A stretch of 64,000 nt of DNA, from the NCBI GenBank assembly GCA_033182465.1, contig CP137323.1:1984001-2048000 (forward strand), written 5' to 3'. This DNA is from Sanghuangporus weigelae (taxonomy: Eukaryota; Basidiomycota; Agaricomycetes; Hymenochaetales; Hymenochaetaceae). Below the pieces are notes generated by a model. It worked only from the letters and a program-made list of their open reading frames with translations, searched no databases and was not told the DNA's origin. The translations under genes were made by a program, and so were the position numbers. Positions 42,485 to 62,123 of the stretch are shown here, one piece after another. Each line of letters starts with the position of its first letter. Position 1 is the first letter of the stretch.

Positions 42485-43144
42485 ACTCAGTAGGTATCAA
42501 CGGGCTCCGATAGACTAAGTTTCACAGTAGTCTATGCAACATCTGATCTTCCCATCTCTTCAACAAATTGCTGAAAGGAAAATGCAAATAGATATAAGCA
42601 ATATACAATATTTGAATATCTACAGTTGGCTGACAGAGAGAAGAGAGCATATGTACAAAGCTCATGAGAAGTATACTACTTTTAAGCTTATCAACTACAT
42701 GTTGACGTATACACTCTAAGTTTAATGAGTCCAATAAATACTCTCCATAATCCTGATGTCTTTGGGTATCATACAACCAACCCTGTTCCGTTGTTTCTAC
42801 TCTCCGTGCTCTAGGAGGACACAACTCTCTGTAGTCCTTGTAGCTACTGTGCCTTTGGATGTAAGCAGTTTATTGACACATGTAACAAATTCATGTTTAT
42901 AATTGAGTTCAACAAAATTGGTTAAAATAACTGATACTTAAAACAAGGAGAAAAAGATGACCAGATATCATCGCTCAGTGACTCCCGATTCTCGAAGCAA
43001 TCTATCTAGATAAGATAAAAACAGACCTTTATACTAATCTTCTCCCATTGAAGAATCTAGCCTTACCGGATAAAAGGTGCTCCGATTGTGATTGTGCTCC
43101 GAACAAAACTCGAGATGACAAAGCCCTGAAAAGTTATTTGCATT
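42485..43144. other. Flank between the Ty3 element and the DNA transposon
   Basis: About 660 bp, AT-rich, with no convincing gene. It ends in TTTGCATT, whose last three bases (ATT) are the target duplication of the CACTA element. Confidence 0.5.
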
Positions 43145-43660
43145 CACAGCGGGCAAATACCGGTTTCGGCAGTGCTGCGATAACGGTCGAAAGTAGAAAC
43201 GAAATTAATAATTGCGTCAATGATTGCGGCAGGGTCGTGACTTATTAATGCAACGTGCCTGACGGCTTTGTTGAGACAATAAATTGCGTAATCGATTGCA
43301 AAAGGGGTTTCGACCCATCTGAGATTACAAATAGCAACATGTTTGCAACCGAAAGGGAAATTTGAAGTTGCGTCACGGTGGCAACTTATTATGTCACTCG
43401 TGATTTCCCTCTTTGTGAGATTTTAAATGTCACACCTGACGCGATTTGTAATTTCGCTACCGGTTGCACTCGGGTGGGCGATCAGTGGTCGCTCAGCGGG
43501 CCGTTCCGCGGGCGATCACCGCATTCAGTGGTCGCTCAGCGGGCCGTTCTGCGGGCAATCACCGCATTCAGTGGGCGATCCGCGGGACATTCAGCGGGCG
43601 ATCACCGCGTTCAGTGGGCGATCCGCGGGACGTTCAGCGGGCGATCAATGTGGTGGGGCG
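43145..43660 (+). repeat. Left terminal inverted repeat with subterminal tandem repeats
   Basis: The first ~340 bp are unique-looking. From about 43,480 the sequence is a tandem array of related ~40 bp units rich in GGGCGATC and GCGGG (for example GGGCGATCACCGCATTCAGT). Subterminal repeats bind the transposition proteins in plant CACTA elements. Open frames here are by-products of the repeat. Confidence 0.85.
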
Positions 43661-45703
43661 ATGAACGGGCGATGGGACGCGTCAATTTCTTGTCTTCTTG
43701 CCACCGTCATCCTCCATCCTGTCTTCCTTCACCGTCCCTGCTCACTTTAACGACTCGCAATGTTAAGTAATAAAGGGCACTAGTACTTTATTTCTGGTAT
43801 CAACTCTGGCACACGCAGGGCAATCAGTATTTGACAGATTTATACATTCTTCACGCCTCAACATCCTCCGAATCATCAACGAACTGAAGGCCCCTGCTAT
43901 CGTACGGTCTCGACAAGAAAGCGCAAGACGAACAATCGCGCAAGGTGAACTTGCGGATACCGCAAAGACTATCCTGAACAATAGTCATAACGGTCTTGTT
44001 CGCTTGGGGCGAAATGATCTGGGCACCCACGCTATTTGACTGAGTTCGGCCCGAGTCTCCTAGGCCTGAGGAACGCTACACGGAGATCAGAAATAAAAAT
44101 ACAAGGCGGCAGTGATACGACATCACCATCGAAGTCGGCATTATACGAAGGAGTGACGGAAAGATTGAGACGAAGGCTGCATCAAATTGGTCAGAGCTCA
44201 GGCATGAATATATAGGCCGGTTGGGCACGCACTCGAATAGGGCATTGGTTGGACCCTGTGACACATCATAGACATCTTGTGTAACGATGGCTATCGGTTG
44301 AACAGGACATAACTGCGTTGATAGGTAAATTAGACTAGATCAAGCGCTACTGAATGGTAGACTTACTCTCCGTTCCTTAAGTGCCTTTCAACGACCCGTC
44401 CATATAGAAGAATTGCTTCAGCACGCTTATTGTACCGAAGATCTATAGCTCCCAAGTATCTCGAGTCACTTATCGCGCTCCAGTGTATTCTCTCGGTCCG
44501 TTCCGCACGAGCTCTTGTAAGCATGCGATATTGTACGGAGTCACTGCCAAACAGTTTAAATCACACATCAATCAAAACGCTCTTTCTACTAACCTCTTGT
44601 TGGTACGTAAGAGTCATGGCGATGCTCTTCGGCACACCAACTTCGTCAAATTCCAGCTTTGGGTCTCGGTGATGACAGTACGTTCCAAATAATTGATACG
44701 TTTCCCCATCAAGTTACCACGTAGACGACCCTCCGACTGTAAAAGAGTACGAATAACTTTGACGGGTCGACCAGACTTTTGTAGAGCTTGAGGTACCCCA
44801 GCAATGTCGTTGCCCATGTATATGGCGACATGGAACTGGACATAACATGGTAAGCAACGAAGCCTGGGATCAATGTGTTAGTGATGAGTCGGACCGTATT
44901 ATTTGTGCAACGTGCGTACCCGCGAACGATGAATATCGTATCGGCTTGGGACCTGTAGCTTCTACGTGACTATTTCCGCGAGTACTTTGTGAATATTTGA
45001 TGCATCGAAAATAGACATAGAAAGGAACCGGGACTAAAATAATAATACAAATTATACATGTAAGTGAACTCCGCTCGGAAGCGTCCGATCGCGAGGAGTT
45101 AACCACGTGATCTGTTATTTTCCGTTTTTATTGCCATTTTTTTTGAAATAACTACTACTAGTCGACGGCAAGAAACAGACAGAGTGCTGCTATCTCTAAT
45201 AAAGCAAATTATGGGCCATTAGATCGAGGACATGTGATTTTTTGATTTTTTGATCATTGATTATTGGTTCAAATCCATGTACATAACTTTTGTACGTAGT
45301 CCAAAGAAGTTTAGAGACGATTAAGAGAAATGAGTGTCATATTGCTGCCTGTGTGATTGCGAAACAGTTTGATACTTCATCGTATGCACAAAACCGGTCG
45401 AATAAGACAAAATAAGAGTATTTCAGAGTGAGGTGAGATGCACTGGCCGAATCCGGTAAATGCGCGCTTGAGTCGACGCGACTTGCCTATCGTCGTGCCC
45501 GCTCGCCTCTAGCTCGCTGCCTACGCTGATCACAATCTGCACAAGACAGCTTGTGGACACTATAGAAGTGAGTAAACATTTCCTGTCATATGATCGCCAC
45601 GAACTTACGAACTTTGCTCAATGGTACATCCAATATGTCGCATTTATTTGGTCGCCTCCTATTTGACTAAACCTACGCAGATCGCAAATGATACTCTCCG
45701 CAA
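43661..45703. other. Left interior of the transposon, no gene recognised
   Basis: About 2 kb with only short overlapping open frames on both strands (for example 44,430-44,672). None shows a motif or a convincing splice chain. A T-rich low-complexity stretch lies at about 45,120-45,260. Confidence 0.4.
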
Positions 45704-46423
45704 ATGGGTGTCAAGCTATCGAAGACCGCAATCCAGCGCGAAGGTGCGCAGAAGGATGGTGCGCAAGCCGCAATCGCGGCTGGAGTGCCAGTGGACGAGC
45801 TGGGAGCAGGGGAGGTGAGTTTCATTTTTATTTTCATTCGTACATAGCTACTTCTTCCATATCCATGTCATCCTCACTTTCCTGGTCGGAATTTATGTGT
45901 TCGTCTGCGTTGTCGAGTACGATCGGCTTGTCCTCAGTCCCATCATCCCGTATTCCAAGTACCCATCCACTCATCTCGTCTCCTTCCATCACGAGAACGC
46001 CTTCTTTGACCTGTTCGCCTTTCTTTTTCGCGGCGTTTTTGTTCTTGCTTGTTCCATCACCGGTATCATCGGTGGTGCGGTCGCCATTTTCTTCTGGCAG
46101 CAGGCAAAGTATTTCATTAGTGCTTAGGGAGGATTTGTGCTTGGCCATTGGATTCAAACTTTCAGAGAAGGCGGGTTGATCTGACGAGGAAATAGTTCGA
46201 AGAGCAAAATCCCGACCTGAAGTTCGGGGTAGGATTACGAAAGCGCGAGGAGAGAAAGAAGCAGAGCGCGAAGAGGAAAGAAAGGATGAAAGGGAAGAAG
46301 GTGAGTTCTCTCGTTACAGATGCAAGCTTATTTTTTAATTTTAATTTAATTTTAATTTATTTTCCTGAACAGATTCCGAAAGTTAAGAACGTCAGGGGCG
46401 GCACTGTTGATGTCGCCGAGTAA
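45704..46423 (+). CDS. Possible small basic cargo gene, three exons
   Basis: Exons 45,704-45,814, 46,196-46,300 and 46,373-46,423 are all in phase 0 with GT-AG introns. They would encode 87 aa starting MGVKLSKTAIQREGAQKDG, then a Lys/Arg/Glu-rich helix (KREERKKQSAKRKER) and a short tail (KVKNVRGGTVDVAE). Function unknown; the basic helix could bind nucleic acid. The first intron is long (381 nt) and contains an acidic open frame on the opposite strand (45,834-46,157), so one of the two readings may be wrong. More 5' exons are possible. Confidence 0.35.
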
Positions 46424-47409
46424 AGTCAACGAAGTGTTGTATAAATGAAGTATTGCATTGAAGAATTTATTTGCGAAGGTATCACTGGCTCTTCCGGATA
46501 TTTGCCCAAGAGTCGTAGACAATTATTTGCGTCCATAAAGAGCACCTTTCCTAGGCTGTGATAGAAAGATAGTCCCTGATCATCTGCGGAGAAAAATGTC
46601 GTATACCGCCCGGATATGAAGCTAAGCGCAACTATACGAGATCCCAAGAGATGACCTTCTTGACGACCCGACCGGACGAACCTTCACGGCCTCGACCGAC
46701 ACGTACTCTACTCTTGGTTTCCATCCTTGGAATAATTCCAAGTTATCTGACACCGATACTGACTTTGACGAGTCCCGATCAGCCTCTTCGAAATGACCAG
46801 GGGCGGGAGCATCTGATAAAATTAACTGATCAAAAGAAAGTACTGAAACTTGAAGAACGATCTAATGCGGCGTCGCCAGATCCTGAGGATGATTAACGAC
46901 AATGACAATTTCAATCCAAGCAAGTTTACGCAGACGCAAGAAACGAAGCGCGGAGATATGAGAGGCCATTGTTAAAGTAGAGTAAAGTGAAAATAAAGCT
47001 CATTCCTGGTGAAGCAAGGCATATGAGCGGCTCTTTGGGACCGGATTTTGACGGAGAACGACACGTACTATATGAGCGCATCGTTCCGATCGTCCGTACA
47101 TGCGAAGCTTGTCCAATCAAAAGCGCAACCGGACGACCTCATGCGGCCAGCGCGTAGGAATCACGAGTTTGAAGCAGTACCTCAGCCATACTCAGGCACT
47201 CTTTCAGTTAATCAACGGACAGGTACGTCGAATAACCTCACCAAGATGATGTTCCATGCTGTCAGAAGATTGGCGAGTCAAAAAGGGAATCGGCGACAAA
47301 GCAGTTCGGCTAGTTATTAGTACAACATTTTACATCAAATCAAGACTTTTTCTTTCACTATATATTCTTGAACAATTTGAGCCGAGTCGGCTCATAAAGC
47401 ACCGCACTC
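46424..47409. other. Transposon interior, nothing supported
   Basis: Short open frames on both strands without motifs. AT-rich simple sequence (TTTTAATTTAATTTTAATTT) lies just to the left, inside the preceding intron. Confidence 0.4.
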
Positions 47410-47922
47410 TCAGTGCATGCCGTGCATATTACGTTCATGCCTGCATCTGTTGCTAGAGTTAGTAAACTCTGCCTCGCAGCCGGGGTGCGAACACGCGAAT
47501 GGTTTGATATTCGTGCTGGTAGATTTTAAAAAGGATGTGAATGTAAACAAGTAATCACATACTGAGATATACGATGCGCCACCAGCTGCCTAGACCTGCT
47601 GAACCTTGTACCACAGTATTCACATAGAAATTTATCCGTACTGAATTCTGGTCAGCATTTATCCTGACGCAATAATATAAACTTACTGCAGGTTTTTATG
47701 AACACGCAGAGCATACGCCGTGTCGCCAATGTAGTCGCATAATACACACGCGAACTGAGCCGGAGCTGGGACTTCGTGGTTGATTGCCTGAGCTGGAGTC
47801 GCGATCTCGGCCCGCTAGGCCAGAGATAGCATAAGAACGACAATCGGGAGAGTTGATTTGGATATACGTGCCTGAGCAGTAGCCGCAGTCTCCGCCAGAA
47901 GGAGCAAGCTGTTTTCAGCCAT
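47410..47922 (-). CDS. Three-finger C2H2 zinc-finger protein (transposon cargo)
   Basis: Assembled from exons 47,868-47,922, 47,687-47,792, 47,563-47,640 and 47,410-47,515, giving 114 aa. A short Ala/Gln/Pro-rich start is followed by three tandem fingers: finger 1 CVLCDY...HKNLH (C-x2-C-x12-H-x3-H), finger 2 CEYCGTRF...HRISH (same spacing), finger 3 CSHPGCEAEF...HERNMH (C-x4-C-x12-H-x4-H). The linkers are TDKF and TNIKPF. Both inter-finger introns split the codon of the last His of the preceding finger, and only after splicing do the fingers close, which strongly supports the model. C2H2 arrays bind DNA, so this may be a regulator or site-recognition protein of the element. It lies 0.9 kb beyond the transposase stop, same strand. 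The start Met and first exon are less certain than the fingers. Confidence 0.65.
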
Positions 47923-48820
47923 TTGTCTAAGTAAGCTTTGAGATGCGAAACGCGAATGCGAAATGAGGTATAAGTCAGCAAATAGAAGAAACCCAGGATC
48001 GTATAGCTTACTCTGATCCAAATCTTCAAGGCGTATAAGAGCGATTGTCAGAACCTCGAACCAGAACACAAGACATTGAAGAGCACAAAGTCGGTGAAAG
48101 CATTAGGCACACTAGGTGCACGCGGTGCATCACAGATATTAAATCCGACGGAAGCATGCATATCCCAGATGCAATGGTACGCAGATTTCGATACGGAACG
48201 TAAGATCGGGAATATCACCATTGCGAACAAACGATGTCCCGAGGTTGCACATATTGACAATCAAATATCGGCTGACTTACTAAATGTCTACAGTCCGAAG
48301 GGAGTTCGGAGAGTATCTGAATTCAGGTCGAGGCTTTCTCTATGATGATACTGTTGATTAGGCTGCCGGAACACTGGCTTCGAGCTTGTCTCGTAGTCGT
48401 CGTCGTCATCCTGCAATCAGTAATTAAATTCAAATTACCTGGCACGCTCACGTGATCTTCAAATTTCCATAAAAGGAAACTCATATCGACGCGCGAGACA
48501 ATGCAAGTCAACTATTAAATCAATCATCTAGCATCTCTCAGGCCCAGGCAATTACAAACAAGGTTGGGAAAAGGGGAAACAGGAACTACTAGAACACCTT
48601 ATTGGAACAATTTCTTGCTATATACGATCCATCATACTATTATGCATAGAAAAATACAAGCAACGACGTCATGTACCGTGTCGATTACTGCTCACGTCAT
48701 GGATTCTGATTAAAGTGTAGAGGCAATGGATCCGGTTCATTGCAATAAAATTGATGGAGAGAATGCTAAGAATGCTTGACTATTGGCAGCAAACCAGGTC
48801 GGAAGAAAGACGAAGCCCGA
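47923..48820. other. Spacer between zinc-finger gene and transposase
   Basis: May contain further 5' exons of the zinc-finger gene (an open minus-strand frame with ALIRLEDLDQ ends near 48,015). Otherwise nothing recognised. Confidence 0.35.
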
Positions 48821-51800
48821 TCATATCTCGCACAGAGGCCGCACTGCGAAGTACCTGTCTACGATGAAGACAGCGACAAAATGACCCTTAACGGCATGAC
48901 AAGGAATGACTTCATACAGTTGAGAAGGATCCTTGTAGAATATGCACATAGGTAGGTTCGGATATTGCCGGAAGGGATCGTGTTCTTCCACTACAGGGAG
49001 AAGGCGCCGCGCAATGAAAATAGGGTAGGGACCTTCGACGATATATTCGATCAAGCCCGCGTGCAGGAGATTTTCAGCCTCCGGGACAAATATGATCTGG
49101 CTATTTCCAACATGCCAGCTGGAGACGGAGTACTGGACGTTATTCCACCTGCACTGAAACCGCAACTTGTCCCATGATTCCTCCACAATTCGCTTAGCGG
49201 AAGGGCTACCAGACAACTTGGAGAGATCAAATCTATCATTCTTCCTGCGCTTTCGCCTTCGCGTTCCTTCCCTTTCGTCGCTCTCCGCCGGAGGCGCAGA
49301 TTCTGGAGACAAAACTTCATCGATGACTGCCAAGCACCCTTCTACGTCAGGAAGATGAACATCCCGCGAGAACAAGCGTCTCATCCTTGAAGTAGCAACA
49401 AAGGTATCAAGAATCGTGCTCTCGAGTTGGCCTACACGTAGATCGGTCAGAAACCTGAGCAGTCATGACGAAAAACAGGCTCGCCTATCTTATTGTTGCA
49501 CGGTATATTCTGTAATTTTCCGATGAGCCGTTCGAATGGGAATGTCCACCATGAATAGGCAGAGCCAAAAATTTCCAAGGAATCCGTAACATGAGTCGCC
49601 ATGTGCATGTTGGGCAGGAACTTCGCGTCGGGATGTATTTCCCGGAGGCGGCGTATATAATTCTTGATGTGAAACTTGTACGCCTCAATGTCGCTCTGAG
49701 TCGTCGACTGCTTGAATAACACCGATACGGCCTGAACTAAGTCCATCGAATGACCTATGATGTCGGAAAAGCGCCCTCTAAGAGTATCATTCCTGACTTC
49801 GCCGCTATAGTAGAGGTAAGATACCAATGCTAGCGGAAGGTAAATCGTGCAGAGTGTTCGCCATTCATCCGCTTTTATCTTCCCTGAAGACGAGGAGCCA
49901 AAGTTACTCGGCACAGAGCGCACGAAAGCCGGCGCCGAAGCGAGGGCAAGTGTATGCTGAATGTGATTTGTTAATCCAATAATGGTCGACTGAGGTAGAG
50001 CGGCGGAAGTCTCTGACGACGACTGTAACGGTCTCTCAAAGCGCTAATCCAAGCATAAGGACAGCGTTTATCGCATAAGTATATGTCCACTTACCCATCC
50101 GACGAGTAGGTTAGCGAGATCGTTCTTGGTTAGTCCTTTCGATTTCGATTTTGCGGATCCGCAGAGTTCCAGCGAGTCGCATACGAAGTACAGAGATACC
50201 CAGCGCTTTGGTTCGAGCTTCGAGTGAAGACGGATCTTTGCATCATCAGCCTCGAGGGGATTGATGGGCTTTAACAAACTATCGTGAATATCCGCCACGT
50301 TCCTGATTACAGTCTCATCCACAACATGCTCTTTACCCACAAGGAGGATTTTTAGATTGTCCGCCCTCCTCTTCCCTCCTTCCTCGTCCTGCGTTTCGAC
50401 TGATGGTAATTGTTTGAAGTCGTATTCGAATGCTGGATCCACGGCCCGACGTGCCAACTTTTTCGACGCCGTCTCGGTAGTCAGCGGCAAGATCGACGTG
50501 AAATGGTTCTGTACCAGTCCCAGCAACAAGCAATGCATTGGATCGACTACGAGCTGTTTTAATGGGTCCCAATATGGCAGACGCCACAGCTCAGACCAAT
50601 GCACGCTGTACTGGTTCGTTATGACATCCGCATCCTTCGAAGTCCTTGCATCACGCCACGCTTTCGACTGTTCCCGAAGAACAGCGGTATCGCGCGGTTC
50701 GAAGACTTTGTCTACTTTACCGATCATCTCCTTAGGACAACTGCAATGACTGCAAAGAAAAGTTTCGCTGCTATGCCCTAACAGTCCGGAGACCTTCCTC
50801 GCAGCAGGCAGATCACACACAACGAGCGCAATAACGGCCCTGGCTAGCCGACCGTTCCGAGACGACGCAGTCCGGGAAAAATAGACTCCTAGATCCCATA
50901 GGACACGAAACTCTTCCACAAGCGGTGCCAGGTAATGATTGATCTGCGTCACATCAGGTTCCTTGGGTGGAATGATTCCTGCCAGGAACACGTTCTCGTG
51001 TTTGTATCGAATGTCCTCTGGCAAATTAAGGCAAATCAGGGAAATAATCCCACAAGATACGCTGGCTGCTCCGCTTCGTACACCCTCCACGTTGAAAAAG
51101 TCGACGTTCAACGAGAATGCGAGTCGCAACTCGTCCTGCCTATCAATGAACAACACACCCGGCCGATGACCCTTCAACTTCCGCAAGAATTCGCCTTCGA
51201 ACGGACCTCTAATCTCCGAAAAAGAGCTAGAATATCGCAGCTTATCACACGCATTGTCGATAGAGGCCTCAACTGACTGTCGCGAAAGCAGGCCGCCAAT
51301 AAAATCCTTCAATGAGTTATACACAAACTTCTTTAGAGGTTTTTTATCTGTGTCCAGGAGTTGTGTTTCGCACTGACGGCCCCGAGGTTTCGGAACGTAA
51401 GAACATGTCTCTGGATAGACAGCTTTCCTAGACAGGGGACTGCGAGTGGGTTCATATAAGGCGTTGCATTCCGGGCAAACAGCGTAGGTAGTTGAACCTC
51501 CACCAAGGCGGAAACTGGAACGGACCATTCTCGAGTCCTTCAGGATGCTGTCTAGGATCCGCACGGCCGTTTCATCCGACGTGGTACAACGCAGAATTGC
51601 ATAAACCAGGCATCGTAAGAACTTCAGTAGTATGTCGGATGAACTTCGGCTCATGGAAAAGAACAGCGAACAAAATGCGGATATAATCAAGACCATATGG
51701 ACAATTCCCGTTTTGTCAGCAATAGGCCAGTCGAAATTATGTTCTGATATATCGCATGAATTCAAATTCAAATCAGTAATGCATTGAAAATATCGTCAAG

Positions 51801-52202
51801 GGAGAACATACCATTCTTATACACGGTTTCACTACGCTCAGAATGTGAAAGCGCAGGTTCTCTGTATCCCTGATCATCATCATCATCGTCACCAACGTCC
51901 ACTTCAGTTTCAACCTGTTCGAGACTGTCCTGAATAAACAGAGCCTCCATGTCCCCGACCAATCCCTCAACATCATCCACTTCCATGTCCATGCCAGTGT
52001 TCTCATCATCGCTTGAGTCGTGATACTGGTATATGATCTCTGGCTCGGTATTACGAATTCTGAAGTGTGATCGAAACATTTTGTGGGCTTCATGGTCATT
52101 CGCAGAGCGGCTGACACCACGAGTCCCATCCGCATTTATCATTCTGGTGCATACGCTGCATTCGCACCTCTCAGTACATTCGTCCTTGTGAGGGCGGACC
52201 AT
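48821..52202 (-). CDS. Tnp2-family transposase of the CACTA element
   Basis: Four exons (51,812-52,202, 50,095-51,743, 49,455-50,043, 48,821-49,431), all in frame, giving 1,079 aa. The order is: an N-terminal Cys cluster (CTERCECSVC); an acidic Asp-rich linker; a zinc-ribbon-like segment (CPEC, later CSYVP and CETQ); then the transposase core with SLNVDFFNVEG (Asp near residue 345), NLPEDIRYKHENVFLAGIIP and CDLPAARKVSGLLGHSS; the DPMHCLLLGLVQNHF motif; and the C-terminal block KADEWRTLCTIYLPLAL, HMATHVTDSLEIFG, SWWTFPFERLIGKLQN. These blocks match, from memory, the large family of Tnp2 transposases of mushroom genomes, which cut CACTA termini. No internal stop in the spliced frame, so it may be functional. 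Palindromic sites lie about 320-525 bp upstream. Confidence 0.88.
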
Positions 52203-52524
52203 TTATGTCGCAATCGAGACAGGAGGTTAGAGAAGAAAGCATGAGGGGGAGGGGGAGGGGAGGAACATCAACATCAACAAGGACAAGGCGACGGTTAAAC
52301 CGCATCCTTATATCCCTGGGCTCAGGTGGCCCAGTTAAACAGGGCTCAGCCATGAGATCCTGCACGATTTCATTCATCATGTCATGTCGAAAGAAGGTCG
52401 TCAAAAGAATGATGGGACGAATTTGGTCATTTCAGCATATTGCACGTGCCCTGTACTGTACTCCCTCTTTCGGATCTTTGCTGGAAGTTTCGTCATCGTC
52501 ATCACACTGGCATGCGCTCTGACA

Positions 52525-52727
52525 GCGAGGCGGTTTAATCGTCTTGCCTGGCGGGGTCGAATAGTTGGCTCAAGATAAGTCCAGTGGTATCGCAGCAAAG
52601 ATCTGTTTGAAAATAATTTCAGCGAGACGGTTTAATCGTCTCGCAGATACCAAATCATTGCTCGTATCTCCGAGTCGGCGAAGTTCCGGTCGCGGAATAC
52701 TGTAGCGAGACGGTTTAACCGTCTTGC
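52525..52727. promoter_or_regulatory. Three palindromes upstream of the transposase (core GTTTAAT/C)
   Basis: At 52,525-52,547, 52,622-52,644 and 52,705-52,727. The middle copy is perfect: arms GCGAGACG and CGTCTCGC around GTTTAAT. The other two differ by one to three bases. They lie between the stop of the coiled-coil gene and the transposase ATG, so they could be promoter operators or subunit-binding sites. Confidence 0.65.
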
Positions 52728-52817
52728 GGATGCAAAAAAATTGGTGGTAATATCATGTACAGGAACATAAATCAATTTTATTGTAGTGTTATCTGAGATA
52801 CAGTATGCGCCTCGTCT

Positions 52818-54596
52818 CTAGTTACCTCTTTGCACTGCATGCACCCTCACCCATGGAAGTCGCTTTGTGGAGACGGCTTCCTGAACCTCCCTTTGCTCCC
52901 AAGATTCGCCCTGTAGCCATGCTGTATTGTAGATTATTCCAGCCCTTCCGCTAGGTGCCTCCCGAATGCTCACGGATTTGCGGTCTCGTATTCGATTTCT
53001 AGGGCCCGAACCTCGGCTTTTCTTCAATACGTGACTCTGCTTGTCGATAAATTGAAACTGTTTCTCAGCATCCTTGGTCCTCCATGGAAGTGTTTTGACG
53101 TGGAAAACTCGTTGATTCACTTCTCCAACGTCGGACTCGTCAGAGCTCATCCCATCTGGTCCAAGCTCCAAGACTTCTCTCACCAGTGAGGTCCAAGGAG
53201 AATCCGGATCATGCTGCACCGGTAGGCATTTTAGGCACGTCTCGACTCGCTCTCTGTAGAGCTGCTTGTCATCTTCAGTGGCAAAGTCTTCAACACAATG
53301 TTCGTCCGACTTACTTTAAGACGCCTACTATTGTGCCGATTCGCCTTCTGTCTGTCGGATGTCTGCTGTTTGCTTCGATGGAACACTTCCAACGTAGTTT
53401 CAAGAACTCCCGGTTCCTTGATTCGAGGAATCAACTTCCGACAAAAGTATCTCGCGCGTTTGATCTTGTGCGCGATCGCCAGCCGATACTTGTTCTCGAA
53501 CTCTTGAGATAAGGAAGTGACGCCTTTATGTTGAAGAAGGTCTTCATAGATAATATCGGCTACTCTCTTATTCCAGCGTGATGTCCATATTCCGAACACA
53601 TCGAGACGAAGATTGTCTGGGGTCGGGCCTTGTTCTCCGTTTCTGTCGTAAGCGTCCACCTGCGTCCTTCTTGCGGGTGTATGCCTTTTGAATTCGGTCT
53701 CCTTTCCGAAACCGAACAAACGAGTAAAAGCTGCAATTACTTCCTTCTGAAGGAACTCCATCAACCACTGCAATATAGAGAAGTTTACTGGCTTACAGAT
53801 TGCACGTCACAACCTTCGGACCGCGGTCGAGCACGACAAGATTTGAGCTCTCGTTGGAGTCCGAACATATCGTCGCGGCCCTGACCCGGTCCTGCATCTT
53901 TGCTATCCATCTCCTGATCGATTGTTTCGAAGTGCCAAGTCATATCTGGAGCAGGTGGACGATGTTCAATATGCGTTCTTTCCGGAGGGAATTCTTCCTG
54001 CATCTCCGCTGACGTTCCTGGAACGAATCCAGCCCACATTTCCGCCGGATTTCCTGGACCAAGATTGTCCTGCATTCCCTCTGGAGTTTCTGGATGAGGT
54101 TCGTCATACACTTCCGCTGGAGTCTCCCGACGAGGTTCGCCATTTATTTCCGCGGGAGTTCCTGATGGACGGCGTTCGTTTTGAGCCTCCGTTTCATGTT
54201 GGATTTCAACCTAAAGGTAATGAGCTCGATCACCTGAAGAATGAAGTCGTGCCTTACTTGTTGGATGTATTGCTGCGTGACTTCATATTCCCTCTGAGTA
54301 ATGGCTTCCATCTGTTGACGGAGCTGTGCGATAACAATGGCGATGAGTATGGCTTCGGCAGCGGTTGCGGTGCTACTCACCATTTCCTTTTCCTCTTCCA
54401 GTCTTTTCATTCGCGATTCAAGTTCCAACCTTTCCCGATTCCTATCGTCTGTCAGCCTTCTCGCTCCCGCGTCAAACGCTAACTTTTGCGCTTCGAGTTT
54501 CCTTCTCTCTTGTTCAAGCGTTAATTGAAGCTCATTTCTTTCCTGCTCCAGACGAGACCTCTCAAGCCCGTCCTGCTCTATGCTTACTACGCCCAT
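52818..54596 (-). CDS. Companion cargo protein, coiled-coil N-terminus plus conserved SDESD region
   Basis: Exons 54,258-54,596, 53,797-54,210, 53,315-53,767 and 52,818-53,261 give 549 aa. Residues 1-113 are a coiled coil (ERSRLEQERNELQLTLEQER). Next is a Pro/Glu-rich linker with repeats of ETPAE/GMQ type, then a globular part (WLMEFLQKEVIAAFTRLFG, GIWTSRWNKRVADII) and a C-terminal region (ELGPDGMSSDESD, LPWRTKDAEKQFQFIDKQ, RIRDRKSVS). The last region is familiar to me from many uncharacterised mushroom proteins. Possibly the functional analogue of TnpA-like partners. The intron between exons 2 and 3 would be only 29 nt, below the usual fungal minimum. These could therefore be two genes or a mis-modelled junction. 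Confidence 0.5.
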
Positions 54597-54828
54597 TGCT
54601 CCCCAGTCAGTGTTATATTTTTTATAATATCGAGGGTAAGGTTGGTTGTAAGTCTAGGGGAAGTATCTCTTTGTCAGTTCGGACAATTTGAATGAGCGTT
54701 ATCTCACTCTATGCTTGCGTCGACAAGGGACGATCGTGTTCCTGGCCGACAGAAGGTTTGGCGCGGTAAGCGGGCTCTTAAGAATGTGAGTGAGTCCAAG
54801 TAGTTCAAAATTTTACCGAAGTTCTCAC
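54597..54828. other. Spacer within the transposon
   Basis: May hold a short last exon of the acidic gene at 54,829-55,059. No independent feature seen. Confidence 0.3.
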
Positions 54829-55059
54829 CTGAAACGTAAATGACCATCTAGATCTTGCTTGGACGGGCATGCTTTGGGTACTCTCGCTAGCAAAGAGATG
54901 ATCACCAACCTCAGGAAGAGGTGTGTTTTGCGCGGGTGTAGTATGCGCGTCGCCCGCGTCGATCCAAGGATTCGTCGTATCGGTCCAAGAAACTGTCGTA
55001 TCGTTCCAGGGATTTGCATTCTCTCCCATAATGACATCCATTGAGGCGTTCGCCATCAT
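54829..55059 (-). CDS. Possible small acidic cargo gene (first exon only)
   Basis: A 77-codon exon starting MMANASMDVIMGENANPW, with Trp/Thr/Asp-rich repeats (NDTTVSWTDTTNPWID), ending at a good donor (CAG|GTGAGA). The following exon is ambiguous: two acceptors near 54,784 each give only a short tail. An open frame at 55,133-55,375 upstream may be a 5' exon. Function unknown. Confidence 0.3.
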
Positions 55060-55770
55060 GCTCCGAGCTGAATCTGGAAAATTTTAAGCAAAAAGGCATA
55101 TTGAACCGACAATTCCTTCTGAACCATCACCATTAACGTCCATGTTCGTCCAGCGAACGGAAAAGGAGAGCTGAGTATGTGCCACTGATCGCAGCACTCT
55201 TTTGAAGCAGGGGTGTGGCTCTGAATCTGCCGCACGCAGTTACTTCGCGGTCCCCTTCAAAGAATGAGCTTTCGTGGTGGCCTCTCATCTTAAAATGAAT
55301 GTGTCTCCCCGATGCGGGATAATCCATTGTCACCGCTCCAATCGGCGCCATGTCGTATTGTGCTTCTTGTCCCAAACGAGTGTCTCATTGTTATTTTGTT
55401 TCTTCTCGGAATTCCTTGATTAGCATTTATTCGACTCGTTAGTGCTCTTCATTGTGTATAGAAGTCCTCCACGACCATGTCTGATCTGATAATGCATGTA
55501 CGTTCAAATATATTAATGAATCTCATTGTTTCATTGTGTTCATGCACATATATGGGTTCGGAGTGGCTCAAGCCATCAAGCACAATCGAGCCGAACGATC
55601 GGAAAGTTTCATTGAAGCTGGCATGCTGCGCCTTTTGCACCCGGAGGCTCAGACTTGCATTTGAATATTTAAGTTTCCGGCCAACGCCTATTCTGCTCCT
55701 CAAATTTCGTGTCATCCACTGAGTGTTCGCATCGCCGATCTTCGCCTTGTGTCGCAAACCACGTATACAT
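55060..55770. other. Divergent spacer inside the transposon
   Basis: Lies between the minus-strand acidic exon and the plus-strand small gene. Open frames at 55,133-55,375 and 55,449-55,757 have no motif. Confidence 0.35.
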
Positions 55771-56141
55771 ATGTCGAGCCAAAGTTACTTGCATCCTCTT
55801 CGATACGTGAGTCAATGTTCATTCACTGAAATCATTGATCGCTAACCTACCCTCGTCAGCGACTTACGGTGCCTATTCTTTCGCGTTTCTACTCCTGTCA
55901 CGAGCCAGAGCCTGAGATGCTCCGTATTCAAGCCTGGGTTGGACGACGTACCATGCATGCATGCGTTTCATCTATCTTGGCCGACGCAAGTATTCAACCA
56001 TACATTCATACGGTTGCTGTTACTCTGATTCGGCCCCGTCGCGTCGAATTGTATACGATTTTTTGTAAAAATCACAAACGCCTGCCTATTAATCGTAGTA
56101 TCCGCTCGACGTTCAAGGGCGACGCTCTGCTCCTGAAGTGA
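55771..56141 (+). CDS. Small conserved cargo protein, two exons, unknown function
   Basis: Exon 1 at 55,771-55,806 (MSSQSYLHPLRY) joins exon 2 at 55,860-56,141 through a GT-AG intron of 53 nt, giving 105 aa. It has a central MLRIQAWVGRRTMHACVSS and a C-terminal RRVELYTIFCKNHKRLP and RSIRSTFKGDALLLK. The end resembles, from memory, small uncharacterised mushroom proteins ending in a similar GD-hydrophobic motif. Intact, divergent from its left neighbours. Confidence 0.55.
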
Positions 56142-56762
56142 GCTCTCGATGGTTCATATTTCATAGACATGAGTGATGACGCGGAAAGTCAAAGAATTGC
56201 TGATTTTGTTATGAGCAGGTTGATTTACCATCTCCACTATAGTATCTGGCCCTGCTGAATCATCTTATTTTCTCCTTGACCATAGGTTCGCGCAGGCGCG
56301 CCGTACGCGAAGCCGTATGATGAAGAAACTGAGAATCGAGACTCGGTACCGGTTGTGATTTTTGGAACGTCATTGAATAGATTGCAGTTTGCATTCTACC
56401 GCAAGAGCGGAGTATATATATTTTTGACTTTTTGCCATACCATATATATGTTTCTTATATTAAATGGACGACCGGCTGAAAGGTGACCACACCATCGGCG
56501 GATGGACGGCTCAAGCGATATTGCCGAGATGCGTGATCCTTTCTTGCAATTTGAATGATAAATAGAAAAGGAGGCAGATCTGAGGGGAAGCATATCGAAC
56601 ATCTAAAGTAGAGTTTCGAGACGAGAAGTAATATTGCCGATTGGAAGTAATATTGCCGATTGGAATGTTTATGACCTCCAGAAAAACACAAGCTCCTCCC
56701 CTCCCCTCCTGGCCGTGTCAATAACAGAATCCAACTATTTGTAACGAGAACGAGTAGATTTC
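56142..56762. other. Spacer inside the transposon
   Basis: No gene supported. Contains a short perfect direct repeat (TAATATTGCCGATTGGA) at about 56,628-56,663. Confidence 0.4.
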
Positions 56763-57531
56763 TTATATCAATATCAGCAAGGATGTCAAACACACAGTGC
56801 TGAAAACCACCTTGGATGCCCTAACCATTTGTGCAAGAGCCCTGTCAGCATGGCATTTCTCCCAACTCGCAGTATATTTCAAATGTAGCCTGCACATGTC
56901 TTTAATGGGCCAACAGTTCTGGAAGCGTTTGAAATCGGGATAATCCCCGGTGGCCTGTCCTATGGTTCTCAGACAGTGGCTCCAATCAAAAAATGACACC
57001 CACCACATCAAAGACTTTCTTTAAAGCACGATCCTTCTGACGTGTGATAGGCTTGCGAATATCGAGATACTTATCAATAAGACGGTGGACATATTTCTAC
57101 ATAAGTTGCACTTAGTTCCACTGACGTGCGATAAAATGACGACTCACCCTCCTAGATGTGATATCGTCCTTGCTCCAGCAACACCCCAGGAGTACTTCCT
57201 CGAGGTTGTATCCACCCCTATTGCGTCTCGAGGCTTCTCCAGGAGGCTTAGGAATGAGAGACGAAGTTTCTTCTGAAGACACTTCATCGACGACTGACAT
57301 TCCACTGTCCACAGCTTCACTGCCAACAGAATCGTCGCCAACAGAATCGTCCACTTCCATCAAATTGTGAGCTCCATCGCTGCCCTCCGATGACCTTGAG
57401 CGAGTTCTGGGCCTTTCCTCACGCGAGCTGGAATGCGATTCTCCGAGTTCTTCATCCGACAGTGATGGAGACCTTCTTGAAGCACGAACTGGAACGTTTG
57501 GGTTATCGAAGCACGAATTGCGACGAGGCAT
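56763..57531 (-). CDS. Cargo protein with disordered acidic N-terminus, unknown function
   Basis: Exons 57,148-57,531, 57,000-57,096 and 56,763-56,959 give 225 aa. The first ~110 residues are Ser/Arg/Asp/Glu-rich (SREERPRTRSRSSEGSD, VGDDSVGSEAVDSG). Then come YNLEEVLLGCCWSKDD, a short basic part (KPITRQKDRALKKV) and a conserved-looking end (YPDFKRFQNCWPIKDMCRL). That last motif recalls regulatory-type ORFs of mushroom transposons. The second intron uses a weak donor (GTGTCA). Confidence 0.45.
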
Positions 57532-57721
57532 GATTCAAATAACAACCATCTTTCTCCGAGACTGCCTTTATACTTTTGTGGATAATAAAAATACATTACA
57601 GAATAGTACAGAGAGCCATTGTCGTGATGACGCTGAGCCACAGCGTGAAGAATGAAGTCCTGCCTACTTTTATAGTCGAAAAGAACAATAACAACTACAA
57701 AGTTTCGTGAAGTCCAGAACA

Positions 57722-58071
57722 AGCTCCAGTTAAACCAGAGCTATATACATTTGGTATTTACGAGGAAAGAAAATCGGAAGTCCCGATTAAACCGGGACTC
57801 CCGATGGGATGACATTGGCTGTAAGAAAGGTAGATATATAGGCCGATCGATCGGTTTAGGCATTTTCCACGTGACCGAGATGACACGAAATCACGCGCAC
57901 GCTAATAATGCTGTTGTGTGTATGGTTAACGTTGTTACTACTAACATCCTAACTCCTACCACAATTGAGACCTGGTTTAATCGGGTTTCAGGATTTCAAA
58001 CAAAAATCAAACAGAGATTCTACTCTGCGTATTCTTTCTGTCCACAACACAGTTCTGGTTTAATCGGGACT
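57722..58071. promoter_or_regulatory. Four palindromes ahead of the giant ORF (core ATTAAAC)
   Basis: At 57,722-57,742, 57,779-57,799, 57,969-57,989 and 58,051-58,071. The second is perfect: arms AGTCCCG and CGGGACT around ATTAAAC, the reverse complement of the GTTTAAT core found upstream of the transposase. The others are degenerate versions in either orientation. All lie just upstream of the ATG at 58,087. Confidence 0.6.
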
Positions 58072-58086
58072 TCGTTGCATCTTCCA

Positions 58087-60993
58087 ATGACTGGGACTCA
58101 GGATTTCTTCCAAGGACGCATCGCCGATACGCAGCATAAATTAGCTGAAGTCATACAGCAACGAAGGAAGGTCTTCATAGATAAGAAAGGCTCTGTTTGG
58201 GTTGGATTCAATGTTTCGGACTTCCCTGAACGTCGGGATGCGAACGTTGGCAGTCTTCGTGACGCTATGAAACCTCGGTTCTACAATGAACGGTTTCCTT
58301 ATCTCTGTGCTGTTCCGAAAACGGACGCGTTGTGGGGTTTTTTCCTTGAGCCTTTCAGATCCATCGACGTCGTACCGTGTGGCAACGGCAATTTTATCCT
58401 TTCGCCTTCTCAGATCGATTTATGGCAAGCGTTCGAATCTTGCACCTTTCGCCTTTGCCAAAGCCTACTGCAACGCGTGAATACGACACTCGACTTTTCT
58501 CTTCCAATATTTCCATGTAAAATTGGATACGCTGGGGTAGCTTCCGACTATTCTACAGCCATGAATCGCGCTAGAAGGTCTCAACGAGCATTTTGCATTC
58601 TATTTGGCATGGCTACATATCTCATCGCGCTTACACCTGATTGGAAGGATATTGGTAAAGCTGAAGGTCTTCCGGACAAGTTTCTGGAGGGTCTAGAACA
58701 TTCTCCAATCGCCAATTTTGCCTTCATGGAAGGCCGCGTAGGAACATTCATTGACTTTTCCGAAAGCATCGCAGAGATTCGCCATTTGCCAGACTTTATT
58801 CGAAAACATATACCGTTCTGGATATTCTGGGGAGACGGGAAGAGCTACCGAATCCCAATGCATGATAAAGTCGACCTTCGCATAGCCGAGATGCTCAGGC
58901 CCAGTTACGAACAAGTGGTGTCCGCAAAGGAGAATAATGGAGACGGAAATTCATTCCTGTTTGAATCGATCGATTCTTCGGCAGTCTGAGACTACGAGCT
59001 CGAGTCTCCGACAGCATCATTTAAAACGCAATTGGTTGCGAATCCCTTGTCGGCGCCACGTTCTGTAATCGATAATATCGTAACTGGCAAGTTGCCGCGC
59101 TCGAACGAGTCCAACTTAGTCTCGATTGATCATACCAACAAATCGTCCCACTCAATGAAAGCCAACTTGACAACAAAAGATAACTTGACTCCTGTCGAGC
59201 CTTACACCGGTTTTGTTCTCTTCCAACCAGGGCAGGTCGAAAAGGGATCATACCAAAATCCCTTTGAATCACCGGAACAGTTTTGGGTGAGGCAGCACGC
59301 CGAGGATGAAGAAAGCCTGAGCAAGATGTCCGAAGTGGACAGAAAGAGGCTCAAGAACGAACGAAATGGATATCGCATTACGAAGAAGTCGAAGGTTTTT
59401 CACTGGGAAAAGTTCTCTTGGGGTTACGTTCATCGTAGCGTGTCGAGGAAGGAACTTGATGATTATTCAGAGTATCCACCTTCTCAGATGCGGTTTTCGG
59501 TGACGCGGAATGAGTGGGACGTCTGTAGTAATTTTGATCCGGATGCCAGGCCGTCTTTCCCAGATCTTGACTCGGACGACAGCTGCGATTTCCCGACATT
59601 GCAAAACTCTACGAGTGTCTCCGTTCCTCGTCGCTCATCTCCTGATAAATCGACTGAGCATCGACTTTCCTTACCGGATGCGGATGAGGAAGAGGAAGGG
59701 GAAATTTTAGAGTCCGATCACTGTCCGATGCATTCCTATACAGCGTTGCCATCCGAAATGGTATTCAGTCGGAAAAGCTTCCAGGAGGCTCTCAAGGCCA
59801 GATATTCCATACACCCCGAGGTCAAAGTCAGATCTTTGAAGGATGTGGAGTTAGATAGAATGCTGTACTATCGATATGGTCTACTTCTTCCAAACGTCCA
59901 TTCGATTCTTTCTCTCGACAATGAATCATCATCCGTTGTATGCGAAGAGCAAGCTGGGAGTTCTTGGGCGATGACTCGTGGCATTCTTTATGACATTGAG
60001 TCGTCAACCGAAAGTTTCACCCTTACCGAGATGCTCGGGATCATTCAATTTGTGCGGCATCTTCTCGAAAACCTCCCAATACCTTCGACAGTCTTAGACA
60101 TTCACCCCGATAATATCGAGTCACCTACTGTATGAGAGATGCGAAAAGTCGCTTTCTCTCTGAATTTACAGAAATGCACTCTTGACGGAGTTGTTTATCT
60201 CCTTCGGCCGAACGATCTCGATTTCATAATTGCCATTGAACAGCCTTCTTTAGTGGTAGAGTTACTTCGACGTGGATGTTTGGCTGGGCGCGAGCTCGTA
60301 CATCTTTTCGCTCGACGTGGTTCACCGTTTCGCACTCTGTGCTTTGCAAAGGAACCCAGCATTAGATTAGACCCGTTGACTTGGGACCTCGGGAGTCGCA
60401 CACTTGACGAGGAGCCCGGGGCATACGCATATGCACAATACGAAAAATTGCTTCAGGTTTTTATGCGTCAACCTCGTGCCCGCTCGATCTTTGGTCTCGG
60501 TGGACCTGTCTGGAGGGCTATTTTGGAAGTTTGCGGGTCCTACGAAGACATTCCTATAGGACCGTCGGTTGATGTCGACGTCTTCGGTCGAAATTTTTTC
60601 TTACCGAATGGCGAAACTCTTTCGGAGGATGTGCTCACAGAGTCTGAACTCCTTTTCTTGTGCGGGACGTACAAAGTTAGAAAAGGTATTTTTTTCAGCC
60701 TTCATTCTCCTTTTGATGACTGAAGACACCCTCTAGGCAGCAAAGTCATGCTCTATTCATGGTGGCCAACGCCTAAGCAATGGATGTCTGCTACTTCAAA
60801 TGTCAGATATTGGAGCCCCGGTAATGAACATTGGTTTATGATCCGTCTACACGAGATACGCAACGGGAGGGCTACATGGGTTCACGTGCCGAAGTGGACC
60901 CAAAAGCTAAAGTTCAATAAGAAAACGAAACGCCTTATGGAGAAGAATGACGAAACTTGTAGAGGATTTCTCGACTCGAGTGAGTTGAGTTGA
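58087..60993 (+). pseudogene. Giant cargo ORF, conserved mushroom family of unknown function, three in-frame TGA
   Basis: One reading frame of about 968 codons starting MTGTQDFFQGRIADTQ, interrupted only by TGA at 58,987, 60,133 and 60,721; no shift of frame anywhere. Recognisable blocks are GFFLEPFRSIDVVP, YSTAMNRARRSQRAFCILFGM, EGRVGTFIDF, HIPFWIFWGDGK, PFESPEQFWVRQHAEDEES, YPPSQMRFSVTRNEWDVC, YYRYGLLLP, LRRGCLAGRELVHLFARRG and VRYWSPGNEHWFMIRL. I recall the same blocks in many 1,000-1,300 aa uncharacterised agaricomycete proteins. No known domain. The stops look like CGA-to-TGA transitions, so this copy is probably dead unless read through. The true start may be the Met at 57,751, but the palindromes fall in that extension and I prefer 58,087. 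Confidence 0.6.
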
Positions 60994-61214
60994 CATCAGT
61001 GCGTATCGATAATATCTGACAATTCGGAAGTCATAGCTATATAGCGTACCAGTCAGCGAATGAATTGTGGGTGGGGATTCTGTGTATCTTCTGCATTGCA
61101 TACTGTGTAAAATGTTGGGATGTATTAGTTATGATGCTGCGAATTATAATTCAATAAGCTTCGTGAAATAATTGATGAGTTGTCAGACTATCTCCATCTA
61201 CTCTCAAACCGTTC

Positions 61215-61731
61215 ACCGGCCATTTGTCGCCCGCTCAAGTCTTCTTTCCGCGGATCGCCCACTGAACGCGGTGATCACCCGCTGAACGTCCCGCGGATCG
61301 CCCACTGAATGCGGTGATCGCCCGCTGAATGTCCCGCGGATCGCCCACTGAATGCGGTGATCGCCCGCGGAACGGCCCGCTGAGCGACCACTGATCGCCC
61401 ACCCGAGTGCAACCGGTAGCGAAATTACAAATCGCGCCAGGTGTGACATTTAAAATCTCACAAAGAGGGAAATCACGAGTGACATAATAAGTTGCCACCG
61501 TGACGCAACTTCAAATTTCCCTTTCGGTTGCAAACATGTTGCTATTTGTAATCTCAGATGGGTCGAAACCCCTTTTGCAATCGATTACACAATTTATTGT
61601 CTCAACAAAGCCGTCAGGCACGTTGCATTAATAAGTCACGACCCTGCCGCAATCATTGACGCAATTATTAATTTCGTTTCTACTTTCGACCGTTATCGCA
61701 GCACTGCCGAAACCGGTATTTGCCCGCTGTG
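61215..61731 (-). repeat. Right terminal inverted repeat with subterminal tandem repeats
   Basis: Reverse complement of the left end. The same GCGATC-rich array lies at about 61,245-61,400, with slightly different unit order and number, so the outer part is the conserved portion and the array has drifted or slipped. Confidence 0.85.
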
Positions 61732-62123
61732 ATTGTATCATTAGTAATCTCCGACGAAAGAGGCAGTTCGTCTCAATCGGACTTTTCTAAGTCAGGAAAC
61801 TTACTCACAATTCAACTACCATCTTCATCCATTCCCCAAGCCGTCTCTTGACGCGTCGCTCGGATCGCAGTTTGCTCAGACTCTTTCTACTGAAACAATT
61901 CAATGCTCGGCCAAACTGCTTTGTCTCTGACTCTGAGGATGATTAAGGAAAGGGGCTTGGACTGGGGTGCGATGGAGGTTGGAGGCGGTCGACATCGTAC
62001 AAATACAGCCTCGGTCTGAGCTACAGCTAGCATCTCAGAGAAACAACCATCCAAACGACTCAACGTGAACATCCCAGACCTCCTGCTTCATACTCTGAAC
62101 GAGCCAGCACCATTAGAAAAAAA
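61732..62123. other. Flank and promoter of the aldo-keto reductase gene
   Basis: Begins with the right-hand ATT target duplication. The element inserted about 390 bp upstream of the AKR ATG, close enough to affect its promoter. No gene recognised here. Confidence 0.6.

Follow-up and report, generated by a model that had tools for sequence, protein, structure and literature searches.

A multi-gene CACTA transposon of the mushroom Sanghuangporus weigelae that carries pieces of host DNA from identified source loci

The genome of the basidiomycete Sanghuangporus weigelae contains an 18.6 kb transposon of the CACTA/EnSpm type, at 43145-61731 of the window (by which is meant the whole stretch of 64,000 nucleotides analysed, positions 1,984,001 to 2,048,000 of contig CP137323.1), and inside its ends both a multi-gene core and short pieces of DNA matching other places in the genome are found. 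The reading preferred here, with a probability of roughly 0.78, is of a basidiomycete CACTA/EnSpm transposon whose conserved core is present in two element families, which has captured host DNA by template-switching gap repair and whose captured pieces have then been spread by transposition. As an example delimited to the base, with a multi-gene core, host-derived pieces and source loci identified, it makes three questions testable in one genome: the roles of the companion genes, the uptake of host DNA by transposons with terminal inverted repeats, and the passage of cargo between families.

Boundaries and class of the element

The element runs from CACAGCGGGC to GCCCGCTGTG with ATT on each side, and its inverted repeats, of 484 bp, are 97.7% identical (488 nt at 98% if the four flanking bases are counted). 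These are the boundaries that an original prediction made from the letters alone had given (CACAG...CTGTG, an ATT duplication and inverted repeats of about 0.5 kb), and they stand, with termini at 43145 and 61731. The flanks agree with the predicted empty-site sequence, TTTGCATTGTATC. The window has just two occurrences of an 11-base core, CACAGCGGGCA, one at each end of the element, 0.03 being expected with uniform bases; each 520-bp end has six copies of the 8-mer GGGCGATC, and the interior none. Arrays of a 43-bp repeat are present at both ends, and subterminal repeats are a feature of CACTA/EnSpm elements. The termini, CACAG..CTGTG, have the CAC..GTG form of that superfamily (CMC), and the transposase gene inside gives a match to Tnp2 (PF02992) of 44.5 bits against a cut-off of 28.6. 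The Plavaka family PF18759, at 16.2 bits, is below its threshold of 26.3, and the Plavaka termini, TGT..ACA or CATCA..TGATG, are not those of the window element.

Movement as a unit

Do the genes between these ends move with them? The genome searched is of 33.87 Mb in 13 contigs, here C1 to C13, the window element being on C6; the protein searches of it score the best candidates only, with E up to 0.001, and the counts of loci that they give are lower bounds. With the left 501 bp as query, the comparison of a terminal repeat with the genome that had been proposed as a check yields 16 places, eight of which pair into four elements with target duplications, the other eight being single or partial ends, some of them adjoining other repeats. 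The four are the window element, C1:195805-215722, C6:173602-177092 and C10:457026-459395. That on C1 is a second full copy, 99.05% identical over 18396 aligned bases, with 174 substitutions distributed at 0 to 11 per 500 bp, and with five insertions or deletions between the two, the biggest of which is a 1506-bp insertion in the C1 transposase gene. Homology between the two copies stops at the element ends on both sides. Because of this second copy at 99.05%, with homology ending where the element ends, the 18.6 kb interior is, on the evidence of the alignment, a unit in its movement. The other two are short derivatives, with the same ends, devoid of the interior genes and without a Tnp2 match. 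Three-bp duplications flank all five paired elements when one of a second family, on C5, is included: ATT at the window element, TTT on C1 (in a run of T, so that its length is ambiguous), AAT on C6, TCC on C10 and GTG on C5.

That the two full copies arose by duplication of a block of chromosome and not by transposition has in its favour the repeat-rich DNA near both, but the ending of homology with the terminal repeats on both sides and the separate 3-bp duplication of each copy are against it, and as the breakpoints already contradict it, it is very improbable. Could it instead be that two short elements inserted independently of each other and, on one occasion, trapped the unrelated DNA lying between them? 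Short elements that have these ends do exist (C6:173602 and C10:457026), but the recurrence of the interior at 99% on C1 already refutes a single trapping, and the core genes are found in order on C5 between other inverted repeats; this is barely credible. The bounded mobile unit carrying genes that had been predicted is thus retained: all three Tnp2 loci (C6, C1, C5) lie between paired ends, as do three of the four loci of a giant gene, the fourth, on C13, being a relic. It had been said that the genes would not be cargo if they were never found between paired ends, and they are found there, though copies of the ends without the interior exist.

Two observations concern the differences between the full copies. 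The 1506-bp insertion of the C1 copy, corresponding to window 50474, is itself another mobile repeat, because sequence 93-98% identical to it is present in repeat clusters on C9, C3 and C2 (L016, L015, L019). Of the substitutions, 171 of 174 are transitions and 148 of 174 are in a CpG context in one or other copy. Other repeats of the window have the same tendency in a less pure form, and the idea that the excess is specific to the element was rejected since they share it; it is read as general methylation-type decay.

A conserved core in two families

The C5 element is of 13,755 bp, with a GTG duplication and 497-bp inverted repeats that are 99.8% identical to each other. These have the terminal CACAGCGGGCA in common with the window element, and no further DNA match is found between the repeats of the two. 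The Tnp2 protein as query, and likewise its C-terminal part, identifies loci at the window, C1 and C5; the giant gene identifies these and C13, and the main exon of a coiled-coil gene and its coiled-coil part match at the window and C1 only. The C5 element is colinear with that of the window, in the same orientation, for Tnp2 (E 5e-157), the C-terminus of the coiled-coil gene (a weak match), a small gene (E 1e-10 and 2e-9) and the giant gene (E 1e-109). The comparison of open reading frames (ORFs) gave no match in the C5 element to the N-terminus of the coiled-coil protein, and exons of a C2H2 zinc-finger gene are too short to be seen by it. On this comparison, which is one of sequence, a core of Tnp2, coiled-coil gene, small gene and giant gene is colinear in two families whose Tnp2 proteins are only ~51-53% identical.

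In the relic on C13 the giant gene is broken, and its 3' end adjoins a CACAGCGGGCA end, with no second end within the 40 kb examined. A sequence on C12 that starts with CACAGCGGGCAAGTAAGG (L020:6820, C12:1635819) suggests a further family with the same terminal core.

Host DNA in the short derivatives

The interior of the C10 derivative corresponds to C8:459545-460203 (95%) joined to C8:461350-462053 (90%), the middle being missing. The element at C6:173602 contains a part that overlaps this one and is joined internally at the same point; a third copy of the piece is at C2:3252336-3253600, near partial ends. The source is a gene for the cohesin subunit SMC1: the two stretches on C10 match SMC1 chains of cohesin in PDB with E 1e-21 for the C-terminal part and 1.5e-5 for the coiled coil, and the Pfam family SMC_N (PF02463) is above cut-off for the first stretch, with nothing above cut-off for the second. 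The C8 source was read at the two edges of the piece that the elements lack, over 171 and 141 bases; the frame is open there for 47 and 46 codons and resembles SMC, and one edge includes LSGGEKTVAALALL, which we take to be an SMC signature.

Was the gene taken up as DNA or by way of its transcript? In the C10 element, and also in that on C6, the captured SMC1 retains a 64-nt GT..AG intron whose removal restores the SMC1 frame, and because the intron is present in the captured copies the source is, judged by this, DNA and not mRNA. At the internal junction the two sides have 3 bp, GCT, in common.

Non-autonomous elements with CACTA ends and target duplications (TCC for C10:457026-459395, AAT for C6:173602-177092), a host gene fragment with its parent identified (SMC1, C8:459545-462053), and spread of the captured piece by transposition (two paired elements at different loci, and C2) are the marks by which Pack-CACTA elements are recognized. 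All are present, and by these marks a basidiomycete here shows Pack-CACTA-like capture, with cargo, as described in the next section, that is common to families.

The mosaic within the full-length element

The full element holds, at 44854-47259 and so on the side of its left repeat, before the transposase gene, a mosaic of pieces of 57-264 bp, in both orientations, from eight source loci on six contigs (Table 1). As far as the searches show, each piece counted has one further match in the genome besides the element copies; two C11 matches (68-69%, repeat-like) and the matches to a dispersed repeat are excluded from the count. In contrast, the 5.5 kb of 52200-57700, with the coiled-coil and small genes, has a genome match at the C1 copy only. 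Two sources besides the membrane-protein exon contain open frames: C5:1558012-1558223 has an open frame of 107 codons on the opposite strand, with a sub-threshold match to the Vps8 beta-propeller (E 0.005), and C1:2503456-2503783 one of 120 codons. A search of solved structures gave no match to the Vps8-like fragment.

Might the pieces be old repeat or pseudogene remnants in both places, and not captures of host genes? The adjacent 43930-44855 of the left flank is a dispersed repeat, the two weak C11 matches (68-69%) look repeat-like, and three of the five sources scanned have no Pfam family, but the single further match of each counted piece, the identity of one as a TM7S3/TM198 exon (PF13886, E 3e-16) and the SMC1 of the short elements make this quite unlikely.

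The C5 element has five of the eight pieces, the inner contiguous ones, in the same order, the outermost three being absent. Over this block the DNA of the two families is 90-92% identical, compared with the ~51-53% of their Tnp2 proteins. Since the pieces stand in one order in both families, independent capture by each was rejected. Vertical inheritance of the mosaic from a common ancestral element, without transfer between families, would be in keeping with the conserved gene order, but it has to accommodate the disparity between mosaic DNA and Tnp2 protein, and inverted repeats that are unmatched beyond the terminal core; it is rather unlikely. In the five shared fragments, both families differ from the source at 53 positions, with 20 differences specific to the window and 22 to C5, though as changes on the source side are included these numbers are non-decisive alone. 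Most likely a single assembly of the mosaic was followed by its transfer from family to family, with gain or loss of pieces at the edges.

Table 1. Features of the window element, in window positions
Feature	Position	Strand	Basis or remark
Left target-site duplication copy, ATT	43142..43144		Read from sequence
Left terminal inverted repeat, starting CACAGCGGGCAAATACC	43145..43628	+	Sequence read, repeat alignment
Subterminal 43-bp tandem repeats, rich in GGGCGATC, left end	43482..43647	+	Repeat and k-mer count
Dispersed genomic repeat stretch	43930..44855		About 30 mostly partial matches elsewhere, 75-88%
Captured, source C8:1040709-1040937 (85%)	44854..45088	-	Genome search; absent from C5 element
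Captured, two pieces, source C10:916479-916594 (92%, 79%)	45547..45697	+	Genome search
Captured, source C7:1555517-1555656 (89%)	45841..45980	+	Genome search
Captured, source C1:2039356-2039509 (95%), exon of TM7S3/TM198-domain membrane protein	46027..46180	+	Genome search, Pfam
Captured, source C5:1558012-1558223 (93%)	46469..46677	+	Genome search
Captured, source C1:2503456-2503783 (68% window, 75% C5 element)	46692..46955	+	Genome search
Captured, source C1:1552413-1552541 (81%)	46946..47073	-	Genome search; absent from C5 element
Captured, source C2:1743849-1743948 (90%)	47160..47259	-	Genome search; absent from C5 element
C2H2 zinc-finger gene, C-terminal finger exons	47415..47750	-	Motif at 47493; two further finger-like upstream exons read by eye
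Tnp2-type transposase gene, spliced, ~1060 aa	48824..52202	-	Pfam, exon mapping of S. baumii P0009
Spliced gene, coiled-coil N-terminus and ETEFKRHTPA / DGMSSDES C-terminus	52830..54410	-	S. baumii P0008, 87% identical
Small spliced gene (MPR... IPKPxG...RGGY)	56766..57534	-	Two exons matched in C5 element
Giant gene, homologue P0001 (967 aa)	58267..60978	+	S. baumii P0001 mapping
Subterminal 43-bp tandem repeats, right end	61248..61398	-	Repeat and k-mer count
Right terminal inverted repeat	61248..61731	-	Sequence read, repeat alignment
Right target-site duplication copy, ATT	61732..61734		Read from sequence

Genes of the element and their relatives

Five genes are counted, C2H2, Tnp2, coiled-coil, small and giant, small ORFs at 54808-55784 on the minus strand being outside the count. 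A Tnp2 transposase, a C2H2 protein and small spliced genes had been predicted, and the first two and one small spliced gene are there, but the expectation of at least six genes has to be lowered: the coiled-coil ORF, taken as a separate companion, belongs to a single gene with the ORFs that follow it as far as 52830, since the S. baumii protein P0008 spans them together (54410-52830), and the giant ORF is not intact.

The long exon ORFs of the window Tnp2 gene are without stops. In the alignment with its homologues, used only to residue ~860 as the modelled last exon holds five stops, D345, D441, C461/C464, H534, H544 and E851 are conserved in 87-100% of those with a residue at the position, and may be catalytic; the spacing of H534 and H544 is wider than the H(3-4)H given in PMC12730594. 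Where the 61 homologues conserve acidic residues and a C(2)C pair the window protein has them too, and it departs at nine columns conserved at >=85%, two of which adjoin a misplaced modelled splice.

Two in-frame TGA codons, at 58987 and 60133, interrupt the giant frame of the window copy. Another TGA, at 60721, which the C1 copy has as well, falls where homologues suggest an intron, and an intron there is likely. The giant gene of the C1 copy has its own stops, and so has its coiled-coil ORF. A Pfam scan of the giant gene and seven relatives gave nothing above cut-off, and the precomputed label PF28437.1 on one relative, P0003, was not reproduced; AlphaFold2 on seven sequences, with mean pLDDT of 37, was uninformative as to fold. 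Of the 48 ORFs of >=90 aa, 20 were scanned for TET/JBP without a match, though small exons and PE-type relatives could escape such a scan.

Exons of three S. baumii proteins map on the window, P0009 to 52202-48824, P0008 to 54410-52830 and P0001 to 58267-60978. Residues 902-966 of P0001 correspond to window 61188-61388 (E 6e-11, 54%), mostly within the right terminal repeat, and because its tail aligns there, in S. baumii too the giant gene, on this alignment, lies against an end of this type. That its gene model runs into translated terminal repeat is counted in favour of the preferred reading. In S. baumii the tags of the Tnp2 and coiled-coil genes, 3651 and 3652, are adjacent and that of the giant gene is 3636, the contigs each having a stated size of 463,168; in S. 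vaninii the Tnp2 relative (1672) and the giant relative (1679) are on contigs of matching stated size. The original prediction had offered the mobile unit as an explanation for the abundance of these ORF families in mushroom genomes. Relatives of Tnp2 are indeed widespread, at least 61 proteins, the named sources being nearly all mushroom-forming Agaricomycetes, but the giant-gene protein search gave seven matches, five of them in Sanghuangporus, and that with the coiled-coil protein one, also in Sanghuangporus, so that the explanation is for the present no more than a possible one.

There is a warning here for annotation. Gene models of S. baumii include genes of the element, one of them entering a terminal repeat, and no CACTA/EnSpm row appears in the passage of the S. 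weigelae genome paper (PMC10803629) that gives its table of repeats.

Two further observations on repeats may be added. The C6 derivative contains an element of ~398 bp with inverted ends (L012:4694-5091, C6:176193-176590), of which there are nine more near-full-length copies at 97-99%. Window 13600-42500 is dense in nested repeats, with ~77-100% matches to other contig stretches that were compared, and includes a 75-bp tandem array at 34468-34694.

Route of capture

The movement of the unit, its duplications, the captured pieces and their sources are there to be read in the DNA; the action of enzymes and the capture route we infer. Tnp2 would cut at the common CACAGCGGGCA core, while an accessory DNA-binding product would act on the family-specific subterminal repeats. 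DNA synthesis may then fill an internal break or excision gap of the element while switching template to sites elsewhere in the chromosomes, and the same process could let families with unrelated inverted repeats come to have one mosaic in common; later transposition would spread the captured pieces. What points to template switching is the form of the mosaic, the sizes of the fragments and the 3-bp GCT at the SMC1 junction. Gap filling with template switching agrees with the size and form of the pieces of animal Pack-TIRs (PMC8277862), for which captured pieces of median 224 bp and microhomology at junctions are described, and gap filling and replication fork switching proposed.

Several points weigh against this interpretation, beginning with the fact that template switching is itself deduced from such traces. 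Mosaic junctions are too unclean for microhomology to be scored, and between some of the pieces are stretches without known source. Pfam was applied to five of the eight mosaic sources: one match is above cut-off (TM7S3/TM198, PF13886, E 3e-16), one below (Vps8), and three sources have none, because of which the label 'host gene' would be secure only for TM7S3/TM198 and SMC1. With regard to the conserved core, the match of the C-terminus of the coiled-coil gene in the C5 element is weak (E 1e-4), and the S. baumii tags (giant 3636, Tnp2 3651, coiled-coil 3652) follow an order that differs from that of the window genes. In each of the two full copies at least one gene is broken, and because of this the current activity of the element is doubtful.

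A different route, tandem insertion followed by aberrant excision, has been put forward for Arabidopsis Pack-CACTA (Catoni 2019, as told in PMC13317346). Derivation of the SMC1 piece from a single locus and the presence of deletion derivatives with the same ends would suit it, but as told there it takes up the DNA between two neighbouring elements, and here pieces of 57-264 bp come from eight sources on six contigs in both orientations. That model could give the SMC1 piece, hardly the eight-source mosaic, and as a replacement for template switching it is a minority possibility.

Template-switching repair is a proposal about how the pieces were acquired; might there also be a reason for their being kept? 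One speculation, to which only a slight chance is given, is of a growing 'cargo strip' of host pieces at one fixed site of the element, passed between families whose inverted repeats are unrelated and kept as a shield, since silencing directed at the element would hit essential host genes too. Its pieces would be those of the membrane protein, possibly Vps8, and SMC1 in the derivatives, and the silencing, on the same slight chance, small-RNA or repeat-directed.

Comparison with known systems

Gene capture by CACTA-class transposons is best known from plants. Helitrons, to be mentioned below, are rolling-circle elements without terminal inverted repeats or duplications, unlike the window element. 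Literature searches on CACTA-type capture in fungi gave work on plants and animals, and fungal hAT and Helitron cases; no fungal Pack-CACTA was among the matches listed, which is weak evidence that there is none, as subscription journals and preprints are mostly uncovered.

Plant Pack-CACTA and Pack-TYPE elements (PMC8903248, PMC13317346) are similar in having host gene fragments inside CACTA-type ends, multiple copies and target duplications; they are described as non-autonomous, whereas in this basidiomycete fragments are also in a full-size element that carries genes. With animal Pack-TIRs (PMC8277862) the shortness of the captured pieces is common ground, and the differences are in the hosts and in a mosaic of eight sources that is partly common to two families. 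In Dothideomycetes, hAT elements captured and amplified histone H3, with capture of a transcript stated for the Pyrenophora case (PMC6710886): again a fungal DNA transposon with an amplified housekeeping gene, but hAT and not CACTA, and the fragments here are genomic, with an intron. Helitrons of Pleurotus (PMC4289320) are likewise mushroom DNA transposons holding captured gene pieces. A precedent for a large multi-gene CACTA element is the En/Spm of Chondrus crispus, which has 4-5 ORFs in 16-20 kb (as told in PMC6431247), though its host is a red alga and the passage that tells of it describes no capture.

There are also the fungal CACTA/EnSpm elements with extra genes, among which TET/JBP genes have been passed between transposon families (Kojima 2025, PMC12730594). 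They have in common with the window element the CAC..GTG termini, 3-bp duplications, a related class of transposase, extra genes and the passage of genes between families. The difference is in the company kept: here TET/JBP was undetected in the 20 of 48 ORFs compared, and the companions of the transposase are the coiled-coil, small and giant genes, together with fragments of the host.

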